Assembly: GCF_900156475.1 (NCBI RefSeq)
Contig: NZ_FTNR01000001.1
Coordinates: 62,001-126,000 of the forward strand
DNA from: Natronorubrum thiooxidans
Lineage (GTDB): Archaea > Halobacteriota > Halobacteria > Halobacteriales > Natrialbaceae
Direction of reading: 5' to 3'
DNA: 64,000 nt
Positions within the stretch are counted from its first letter, which is position 1, and each line of letters opens with the position of its first letter. Of this stretch, positions 7,811 through 22,438 are shown piece after piece. Both the position numbers and the translations under genes were made by a program. The notes below the pieces were generated by a model. That model did no database searches. It had not been told where the DNA came from and was given only the letters and a program-made list of their open reading frames with translations.

Positions 7811-8152
7811 ACCGTGCTGTTGTGACTCGAGGGGCAAGAAGCGTCGTATCATCTCCGTGCTGGTCGCAGAGTGGTGTGCTAAGCTAACCGATGGCATTAT
7901 ACTGGTTCAGTGGTGACTGGGCCTACGGGAGCACCGACACGGCAATAGACACACCACCAGCTCCCGTTTTCACGACACGTTGACGGTGCTGAGTCGTGAT
8001 GCCGTTCGCCCAGTGTGGCGACGGCTCTGATACGGGAACCGGAAGGCGACTCTTTGTTCGCGGTCGAGACTGGTAACTGTTCGGCAGACAGCCGTCTGAC
8101 GAGCGGCTCGGACGCGACATACTTTTGTCTCCGGGCCCGAGCATGACCGACG
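7811..8152. other. Divergent intergenic region (CobW / Get3-like operon)
   Basis: No convincing gene is seen here. A minus-strand TATA-like stretch (around 7895-7903, reading CAGTATAATG) could serve the CobW gene. acatacttttg (8114-8124) lies about 30 bases before the 8153 start. Confidence 0.5.
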
Positions 8153-19390: not shown

Positions 19391-20350
19391 ATGGACTGTA
19401 ACCGGTGTGACGAAGAGGCGGTCATGCACGCCGCCTACTCCGGGGCGCATCTCTGTGCGGATCACTTCCGCGAATCGGTCGAAAAACGGGTGCGCCGCCG
19501 CGTGCGTCGGGACGACCTCGTCCCACACGACGCGACGCCAGAGAACCCACAGACGTGGGTGATCGGCCTTTCGGGGGGTAAAGACAGCGTCGTCCTCACG
19601 CAGATTCTTCACGACACCTTTGCGAAAGATCCTCGCATCGAACTCGTCGGCCTGACGATCCACGAGGGCATCGAGGGCTACCGGGACAAGAGCCTCGAGG
19701 CCTGCATCGACCTCACCGACGACCTCGAGATCCGCCACGAAGTCGTCAGCTACGAGGAGGAGTTCGGCGTTCGAATGGACGACGTCGTCGAGGACGACCC
19801 CGAAAACATGGCCGCCTGTGCCTACTGTGGCGTCTTCCGGCGGGATCTGCTCTCGACGTACGCCGACGAACTCGAGGCGGATCTCCTGTTGACGGGCCAC
19901 AACTTGGACGACGAGGCTCAGTCAGCGCTGATGAACTTCCTCGAGGGCGACGTCGAACAGATGGCAAAACACTTCGATGCCAGCCTCGGGCCGCTCTCCG
20001 AACGCGACGAGCAGGACGAGTTCGTCCCCCGTGCGAAACCCCTTCGAGACGTCCCCGAAAAGGAAGTCGCCCTCTATGCTCACCTCAACGACCTCCCCGC
20101 CCACATCACGGAGTGTCCGCACTCGAGTGAGGCCTACCGCGGCGAGATCCAACAGCTCCTCTACGGGCTCGAGGAGAATCATCCGGGAACCCGCCACTCC
20201 ATTCTCTCTGGGTACGAAGAACTGGCCAGCATCCTCTCCGACGAGTTCAGCGGCGATGACGGCGCTGACTTACAGGACTGTGCCGAATGCGGGTCGACGA
20301 CGACCCGCGAAATCTGTCGGAAGTGTTCGTTACTCGAGTCACTCGTCTGA
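19391..20350 (+). CDS. ncsA: tRNA 2-thiouridine synthase NcsA/CTU1
   Basis: A 319-residue PP-loop ATPase of the TtcA/CTU1 group that 2-thiolates wobble uridine in Lys, Glu and Gln tRNAs using the ubiquitin-like SAMP2 pathway in haloarchaea. It has an N-terminal zinc site (CNRC, then C22), the PP-loop SGGKDS (residues 61-66), the catalytic CAYC pair near residue 142, LLTGHNLDDEAQ and a C-terminal zinc ribbon (CAEC...CRKC). The ATG at 19391 begins the zinc site. Confidence 0.92.
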   Translation: MDCNRCDEEAVMHAAYSGAHLCADHFRESVEKRVRRRVRRDDLVPHDATPENPQTWVIGLSGGKDSVVLTQILHDTFAKDPRIELVGLTIHEGIEGYRDKSLEACIDLTDDLEIRHEVVSYEEEFGVRMDDVVEDDPENMAACAYCGVFRRDLLSTYADELEADLLLTGHNLDDEAQSALMNFLEGDVEQMAKHFDASLGPLSERDEQDEFVPRAKPLRDVPEKEVALYAHLNDLPAHITECPHSSEAYRGEIQQLLYGLEENHPGTRHSILSGYEELASILSDEFSGDDGADLQDCAECGSTTTREICRKCSLLESLV

Positions 20351-20604
20351 GTCCCACTGGAGAGCCGTCTTACGGTGGCGTTCCACGGAATTTTCGCTCG
20401 CATCCTCGAGGCGAAAAGCCGATTTTGTGTCTGTATACGGCTGTAAACAGGCGTCTTGTCGGCCACAAAGACGGAAACGTGATTGGTCTCACAGCAAACC
20501 GTCTGTCTGACTCCCCGGCTCTGGAGAGAACTGTCGTGACTCTCGGTCGCTATTGGTCAGGAAACGAGAACGGCAAAAACGGGCCGTCTCGGTAGCAACA
20601 CGGT

Positions 20605-20867
20605 GTGCCGCGTGCGGCGGGTGGTGTGTCAAGTGCCGCGTGCGGCGGGTGGTGTGTCAAGTGCCGCGTGCGGCGGGTGGTGTGCCAAGTGCCGCGTGCG
20701 GCGGGTGGTGTGTCAAGTACCGCGTGCGGCGGGTGGTGTGTCAAGTACCGCGTGCGGCGGGTGGTGTGTCAAGTACCGTGTGCGGCAGGTGGTGTGTCAA
20801 GTACCGTGTGCGGCAGGTGGTGTGTCAAGTACCGTGTGCGGCAGGTGGTGTGTCAAGTACCGTGTGC
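20605..20867. repeat. 28-bp minisatellite, nine full units plus a partial one
   Basis: Head-to-tail tandem repeats without spacers at 20605, 20633, 20661, 20689, 20717, 20745, 20773, 20801 and 20829, then an 11-base partial unit. Each unit holds the mini-palindrome CCGC-GT-GCGG and ends in GTGTGTCAA. Units 1-4 begin GTGCCGCG (unit 3 has one further change), 5-6 begin GTACCGCG, and 7-9 begin GTACCGTG and have GGCAGG for GGCGGG. The array ends three bases from the ftsZ2 stop. Because 28 is not a multiple of three, it opens spurious frames on both strands. Confidence 0.97.
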
Positions 20868-20870
20868 CGA

Positions 20871-22058
20871 TTACCGGATCACGTCGACGCCGTTCTGTTT
20901 CTCGAGTTCCTCGCGGCCGCCATCGCTGTGGGCGCCGACGTTGGAACCGCCGTCTTCGATGTGATTGCTCGCGTCGAAGTCGGTGTTTTTCACGCCCTCG
21001 ATGCTCTGCCGGGACTTGTCGGCCTGCTTCTGGGTCGTCGGACCGAGCACCTGTGCGCTCTGGACGCCGGTCATGATCGCCATGACTCGCACTTTGCCCT
21101 TGTAGTTGTCCTGGATGCGGGCCCCCCAGATGACGTTCGCCGAGGCCTCGAGGCGCTCGGTGATGTTGTCGGCGATGCCCTCGGCCTCTTTGAGGGTGAG
21201 GTCGGGACCGCCAGTGATGTGAACGAGGCCACCCGAGGCACCGCGGTAGTCGACGTCCAACAGCGGGTGGTTCATCGCGTCTTTGACGACCTCGTCGGTC
21301 TTGTTCTTGTCCTGGGTCTCACCGACCAGCATGACGGCGACGCCACCCTGGTTCATGATGGTGGACATGTCCGCGTAGTCTAAGTTGATCAACGAGGGCT
21401 GGGTGATCGTCTCCGAGATTCCCTTGACCGTCTCGGCGATGATCTGGTCCATCACCGAGAACGCCTTGCCGATCGGGAGGTTCGGGACGTAATCCAGCAG
21501 CCGGTTGTTGTCCAACACGATGATCGAGTCGGCCTGCTCGCGCAACTTCTCGAGGCCTTCCTCGGCTTTCACCGTGCGGGCGCGCTCGACGTTGAACGGT
21601 GTCGAGACCATCCCGACGACGATCGCCCCCTGTTCTTTGGCGATCTCGGAGACGACGGGGGCGGCACCGGTCCCGGTCCCGCCACCCATGCCTGCGGTCA
21701 CGAACACGAGGTCTGCGTCTCCGAGAACCTCCTTGATCGTGCCCTGGGCCATCTCGGTCGCGCGTTCGCCCATCGATGGATCACCGCCAGCGCCGAGCCC
21801 GTTGGTGAGCGATTTGCCGACCAGGATTTTCGTGTCGGCCTCGATCATCTTGAGGTGCTGTTTGTCCGTGTTGATCGCCACGGTATCGGCACCGTCGACG
21901 CCGATGTTGTACAGGCGGTTGATCGTGTTGTTACCCGCACCGCCACAGCCGACGATGACGATCCGTGGATCGCCGAACTCGTCGTCGTCCATGTCGGCGT
22001 CCATCTCTCGGGACTCCTGCTCCGCGTTCTCGAGTGCGTCTTGAACGATATCCTGCAT
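20871..22058 (-). CDS. ftsZ2: Cell-division tubulin FtsZ2
   Basis: A 395-residue FtsZ. It has [13 protein letters not shown] (~33-45), the tubulin signature GGGTGTG (125-131), [10 protein letters not shown], and the T7 loop NLDYADM, so GTP binding and hydrolysis at the polymer interface are expected. The N-terminus [13 protein letters not shown] is that of haloarchaeal FtsZ2, which drives constriction. The frame opens six codons earlier (22076), but 22058 matches the family, lies two bases after the cdrS stop, and is preceded by AAGGTG, a Shine-Dalgarno-like match inside cdrS. It is therefore co-transcribed and probably coupled with cdrS. Confidence 0.97.
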
Positions 22059-22060
22059 CG

Positions 22061-22240
22061 TTACACCTTCGCCCACGTTCGTTTGCTGGACTGGTCACTC
22101 GCTCCGTCCTGTTGTTCGTTGACCATTTCACGGACGGCTGACCGGATCGCCTCGCTCCGGTTCGGAAACTCGCCCGAGTCGACCAGTTGTTCGACCTCCT
22201 CGATCTGCTGTTTCGGAATTCGCAGTGTCACACGCTCCAT
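22061..22240 (-). CDS. cdrS: Ribbon-helix-helix regulator CdrS
   Basis: A 59-residue ribbon-helix-helix protein. [20 protein letters not shown] gives the DNA-contacting strand and first helix, and [16 protein letters not shown] the second helix. In Halobacterium and Haloferax the orthologue just upstream of ftsZ2 is CdrS, a regulator of cell division. The start at 22240 is chosen because RHH proteins begin a few residues before the strand. The stop is two bases from the ftsZ2 ATG. The upstream region carries the GTCTTAC cluster described separately. Confidence 0.93.
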
Positions 22241-22258
22241 AGTTGTATTCCCTGTAGA

Positions 22259-22430
22259 GTAAGACGGCGGCGCGCCCCTGTCAGACGCGGCATGTCTTAC
22301 ACCGTAACCGCCCGACATCGGACGTTTTTCGGTGTTTGCCGACCGTTGTAAGACAACCGTCTTACGCGACTAAGTGGAAGACTGTCAGAGGCAATAAAAC
22401 TTTCGTCGAATGTGACTTTCTGTGTCTTAC
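22259..22430 (-). promoter_or_regulatory. cdrS-ftsZ2 promoter with five GTCTTAC-type motifs
   Basis: GTCTTAC or its complement GTAAGAC occurs at 22259-22265, 22294-22300, 22348-22354, 22359-22365 and 22424-22430. The third and fourth form a perfect inverted repeat GTAAGAC-N4-GTCTTAC. Two of the copies share the extended TGTCTTACAC. A minus-strand box A (TTTTATT, 22393-22399) lies between the motif at 22424 and the inverted repeat, so transcription would begin near 22370 with a leader of about 130 bases. The layout is that of an operator bracketing a promoter. Confidence 0.75.
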
Positions 22431-22438
22431 ACTGGTCG

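Follow-up and report, generated by a model that had tools for sequence, protein, structure and literature searches.

A conserved word behind ftsZ2, probably a 3'-UTR RNA element, has been amplified into tandem arrays in several haloarchaeal lineages

Results

The ftsZ2 locus and its tandem array

In the window (the whole stretch of 64,000 nucleotides of Natronorubrum thiooxidans that was analyzed), ftsZ2 is preceded by a cdrS-like gene, a layout that matches the published cdrS-ftsZ2 locus or operon (PMC7439475, PMC8406309), and is faced by a convergent NcsA/TtuA-like gene, which is not a constant neighbor of the motif described below. The space behind ftsZ2 holds by far the top-scoring tandem array of the window (Tandem Repeats Finder [TRF]; period 28, 9.3 copies, 97% matches, score 443), which a genome search found to be single-copy, with no other significant place in the genome. 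A reading made earlier from the sequence only had described nine 28-bp units reaching to within three bases of the ftsZ2 stop, and both TRF and the coordinates bear this out, the gap being exactly three bases. The polarity of unit variants that it noted also stands, and its grouping into units 1–4, 5–6, and 7–9 differs slightly from that in the TRF register, which gives units 1–3, 4–6, and 7–9 and a further change private to unit 3. Several GTAAGAC/GTCTTAC half sites (window positions 22255-22435) that precede the cdrS-like gene and ftsZ2 are visibly conserved in relatives and form a candidate operator, perhaps of CdrS or CdrL.

Table 1. Features of the window, with their positions, strands, and basis
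Feature	Position	Strand	Basis
28-bp tandem array (nine units plus 8 bases), read as ftsZ2 3' UTR	20608..20867	-	Tandem Repeats Finder
Nine full 28-bp units of the array	20608..20859		
Motif span: eight exact GACACACCA and one GGCACACCA	20622..20854	-	
Exact GACACACCA, + strand starts	20622, 20650, 20706, 20734, 20762, 20790, 20818, 20846		
GGCACACCA variant, + strand start	20678		
ftsZ2; stop TAA at 20871-20873, probable ATG start (MQDIVQ..) at 22058	20871..22058	-	
First run of five T past the array; probable terminator U-tract, same layout in relatives	20575..20579	-	
cdrS-like ribbon-helix-helix gene upstream of ftsZ2	22061..22318	-	Named from sequence and position
Convergent gene, CxxC tRNA-thiolation type ATPase (NcsA/TtuA-like)	19391..20350	+	Named from sequence
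Second motif site: hairpin ACGGGAGC..GCTCCCGT, GACACACCACC in loop (7948-7958), then TTTT	7925..7970	+	

Each array unit bears GACACACCA(CC) on the ftsZ2 strand, one of the nine reading GGCACACCA instead. Frames on the + strand stay open across the array, as the unit length of 28 is not divisible by three and the units contain no stop; a conserved protein is not expected from it, since the units of relatives measure 15, 21, and 27 bp. The units lie head to tail, without the unique spacers that separate CRISPR repeats, and neither a CRISPR nor a coding-repeat reading fits. Rfam covariance models gave only chance-level matches in the window, far below the gathering score. The array is unlikely to be an assembly artifact, because three other Natronorubrum genomes have an array of this kind in the same place.

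A conserved word behind ftsZ2 in Natrialbaceae

An FtsZ2 orthologue is present in the relatives searched (query, 20871-22049). Within 300 nt past the ftsZ2 stop, 119 Natrialbaceae genomes contain 170 copies of the 9-mer GACACACCA, all in sense and none in antisense orientation, against a mean of 1.3 and at most 4 copies in dinucleotide shuffles of the same 3' regions. The copies come from 55 genomes, which represent 9 of 28 genera; neither the members of an array nor genomes that are related to each other count as independent. The copies are single, paired, or in tandem at 15, 21, 27, or 28 bp, and while the linkers differ, arrays and scattered copies have in common the core YGACACACCAC(C), read on the ftsZ2 strand. 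A scan for paired motifs matched 36 of 125 genomes of the family, mostly behind ftsZ2, and its reversed control gave three hits. The gene downstream of ftsZ2 varies between genomes, and the element therefore follows ftsZ2 rather than its neighbor.

About half of the 119 genomes lack the motif behind ftsZ2. In a set of 48 named loci, most of them outside the family, those with the word behind ftsZ2 all belonged to family members; the exceptions were one stray 8-mer and two GACACACC 8-mers, which coincide with CxxC codons in the convergent gene. FtsZ2 function in general therefore does not depend on the motif. The stretch read of the ftsZ1 3' region in the window's genome contains no motif.

Arrays turn over among close relatives. 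The three further Natronorubrum genomes with a 28-bp array carry 9, 6, and 5 motif copies, which together with the window's own array gives 9, 9, 6, and 5 units in four sister species, a copy-number variation typical of variable-number minisatellites and seen also in the Natrinema hispanicum group (27-bp unit, one to four copies). In Natronorubrum genome G001, eight of the nine units are identical, which reveals recent homogenization; these counts support the earlier proposal that the array grew by local duplication. A further Natronorubrum relative, G005, has a 21-bp array with 7 motif copies that is without the GCCG/CGGC palindrome yet keeps GACACACCAC, and in the other five relatives of this set the shared word occurs at two or three scattered places. 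In three Natronococcus genomes the unit measures 15 bp (GACACACCACCGATC); about 5 to 9 copies stand in tandem, with scattered copies after them. The linkers of the 27- and 28-bp units are alike and, judged by this likeness, may be of common origin; those of the 21- and 15-bp units are different.

Position and predicted structure of the motif

Among the 55 motif-bearing genomes, the 47 with a T-run have every motif copy before the first such run, which mostly lies 10 to 59 nt beyond the last motif. When the linkers were shuffled and the motifs held fixed in these 55 genomes (of which related ones are not independent), prediction left the native motif less paired than in the controls in 93% of genomes (mean z for unpairedness, 1.5) and gave the native sequence the more stable fold in 95% (mean z, -2.4); in the window's genome, the unpairedness of the array motifs is only mildly better than in the controls (z, 0.74). 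The predicted folds of the window array contain GCCG/CGGC-type stems, often pairing adjacent units around the motif.

Long closing stems are also in excess. At least 6 Watson-Crick pairs close the motif in 21 of 56 non-redundant copies (against 2.3 with shuffled flanks and 6.3 with flanks swapped between copies) and at least 9 pairs in 8 of them (0.1 and 0.5, respectively). These stems vary by genus, examples being CCGGCACGAC/GTCGTGCCGG, GCGAATTCGC/GCGAATTCGC, GTCCGCGAC/GTCGCGGAC, and GCGCGACCGGACCG/CGGTTCGGTCGCGT. Among the hairpins of a Natrinema set, two pairs of the stem show changes on both sides, 93.6% of cells pair, and the loop motif is invariant; in Natrinema genomes G147 to G149, a single loop holds two words. 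The structured ftsZ2 3' UTR envisaged in the sequence-only reading is thus supported by predicted folds, but the CCGC-GT-GCGG hairpin that it quoted cannot form as written, as it would need a 2-nt loop, and the stem is not the conserved part: what is kept is the unpaired GACACACCAC.

The hairpin site at 7948 and a dispersed element in Haloprofundus

Of the 38 non-array GACACACCA sites of the window's genome, all of which were viewed, a single one, at 7948, occupies the loop of a compact hairpin with T's behind it (Table 1). It lies in the divergent intergenic region between a cobW-like and an arsA-like gene; the site is kept in G001 and G002, and in the seven remaining Natronorubrum genomes the word was not found there.

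Outside Natrialbaceae, Haloprofundus (Haloferacaceae) harbors a dispersed intergenic element of about 200 to 300 bp with two motif copies, present at nine loci (L381 to L389, in G254, G207, G310, and G200) and at NZ_CP083667.1 91098-91476; G254 has six paired-motif copies, and a TATA-like stretch stands upstream of most copies. Across the nine copies aligned, two TGACACACCA words do not vary, and complementary arms (GAGA..ACGTAG / CTGCGT..TCTC; 87 to 92% of cells paired) enclose the first of them. Stem covariation in this set does not exceed that of shuffles, and single-sequence folds of the loci are not uniform; the motif copies probably lie in loops. The element had no match in 166 other Haloferacaceae genomes, nor did its loci match any Rfam covariance model. 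It could be a multicopy small RNA or a mobile DNA repeat, of which we tentatively prefer the small RNA.

Discussion

Proposed function

The array is probably the expanded form of a GACACACCAC RNA word that is common in the ftsZ2 message tails of related haloarchaea, where it would lie mostly in hairpin loops, and the motif probably serves as a docking site for a putative regulator rather than being a random minisatellite. We favor a role at the level of RNA because the copies are sense-only, are placed between the stop codon and the T-run, and are predicted to occupy loops. With a probability of roughly 0.6, the ftsZ2 array would be a multiplied cis-acting 3'-UTR element whose core is read by a putative trans-acting factor. 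The functional core would be single-stranded YGACACACCAC(C), offered by hairpin loops or by unpaired linkers in the stretch from the stop codon to the terminator T-run, and the factor binding it would most likely be a sequence-specific RNA-binding protein. Several sites per mRNA would raise occupancy and so set the stability, translation, or 3'-end formation of the ftsZ2 mRNA; alternatively, the ftsZ2 mRNA would titrate the factor. Transcription and binding of the element, the protein nature of the binder, and the direction of regulation are what we infer from these patterns.

Such a role has precedents. The study of Brenneis and Soppa (PMC2636863) reports that in haloarchaea the direction in which translation is regulated depends on the 3' UTR acting jointly with the 5' UTR, and so shares with our proposal the 3' UTR as regulatory site; the genes studied there are others, and its abstract names no conserved sequence word. 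In Halobacterium, mRNA and ribosome levels of ftsZ2 part ways, and the gene is probably regulated post-transcriptionally (PMC8303175). CdrS, the product of the gene immediately before ftsZ2, works at the DNA level, for the most part upstream of transcription starts (PMC8406309), and does not suggest itself as the reader of the word.

The nearest analogy is with the Csr/Rsm system, in which CsrA/RsmE recognizes a short word repeated in loops with variable stems, both on mRNAs and on protein-sequestering RsmZ-type small RNAs (PMC4005645). The ftsZ2 element resembles these targets in being a repeated short word predicted to be single-stranded in loops of variable stems, but the word is GACACACCAC, not A(N)GGA, its loops offer no GGA, and the setting is an archaeal 3' UTR as opposed to a bacterial system. 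We know of no CsrA-like protein in haloarchaea. A full Csr-like post-transcriptional system, in which a putative protein would read YGACACACCAC in loops, the ftsZ2 mRNA would be its main target or sponge and tie in cell division, and the Haloprofundus small RNAs would share the word, is a tentative extension that we regard as possible, if doubtful.

Alternative explanations

Stable predicted folds between the stop codon and a T-run would also suit a terminator or 3'-end protector, whose hairpins stop RNA polymerase or block exonucleases and whose loop sequence is incidental. We consider this unlikely: the loop word is conserved while the stems change, the palindrome-free array of G005 still has it, and archaeal terminators rely on a U-tract, a hairpin not being strictly needed (PMC8716108). 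The ftsZ2 element may resemble the U-tract terminators that work with aCPSF1 in ending near a T-run, but the KH domains of aCPSF1 recognize U-tracts, whereas the ftsZ2 word is C/A-rich and upstream (PMC8716108). Termination alone would leave the invariant loop sequence unexplained, with the T-run located beyond the motifs. Slippage amplifying a chance sequence into a functionless array would account for the clear slippage history and the copy-number changes, and in its tandem units, local duplication, and polar variants the array does resemble a VNTR minisatellite; such neutrality is nonetheless hardly credible for a word whose core is kept in nine genera amid unrelated linkers and that exists in single-copy form, without tandem repetition.

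If the word were instead read as DNA, by an initiator or another DNA-binding protein to which RNA is irrelevant, one would point to the GACACACCAC that ends some origin-box-like repeats of the family beside orc1/cdc6 genes, and to the G-strings that end haloarchaeal origin recognition boxes (ORBs) (PMC3528665). The ftsZ2 units differ from these in having neither a TTTCA..TGAA dyad nor any inverted copy, all 170 copies sharing one orientation, and many copies sit in stem loops before a T-run; we rejected an origin or ORB function at ftsZ2 and deem any DNA-level site quite improbable. An antisense RNA in place of a protein is a decidedly unlikely partner as well. A short, repeated, single-stranded loop word would suit kissing interactions, but in the window's genome exact TGACACACCACC is confined to the array and a single further place, one-mismatch sites are near the control count, and the one notable complement, GTGGTGTGTC in 16S rRNA, does not track the motif across species.

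We also considered and rejected 16S rRNA as a pairing partner: the word is exactly complementary to GTGGTGTGTCG in the 16S rRNA of the window's genome, but motif-rich species such as G157 have TGTTGTGCC there and several motif-less ones GGTGTGCC, so that the rRNA site does not follow the motif. A likeness to the 16S decoding site (CTTGCACACACCGCCCGTC versus CTTGACACACCACCCGCC) is apparent by eye, but the core GACACACCAC consistently differs, and we take it as chance. A literature search for the string ACACACCACC in archaea found no relevant paper.

A factor-binding RNA word, our preferred reading, would bear on how archaeal FtsZ levels are set post-transcriptionally. To our knowledge, sequence-specific RNA regulons are almost unknown in archaea. 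The word amplified behind ftsZ2 could serve as bait for finding a binding factor, and the genomes bearing 1 to 12 copies as a natural dose series; such a factor, if found, would define the first Csr-like regulon in haloarchaea, and one linked to cell division.

Other occurrences of the word

Away from ftsZ2, the remaining paired copies in the family fall mostly within origin-box-like repeats, several of them beside orc1/cdc6 genes. At L231 to L236 and L239, GACACACCAC is followed by GTTTCA.GTGAA-like dyads, and Orc1/Cdc6-like genes adjoin the repeats in L231, L232, L233, and L236. In two g28 genomes (G056 and G109, loci L347 and L348), a 10-pair stem encloses a loop with two GACACACCA words, at a distance from all recognized gene 3' ends. 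In other families, a 28-bp array (L391 2258-2433, in G359) and an 18-bp array (L393 1906-1985, in G185), neither with a recognized ftsZ2 beside it, both contain GACACACCAC. Viral contigs scanned for paired motifs yielded 22 scattered stretches.
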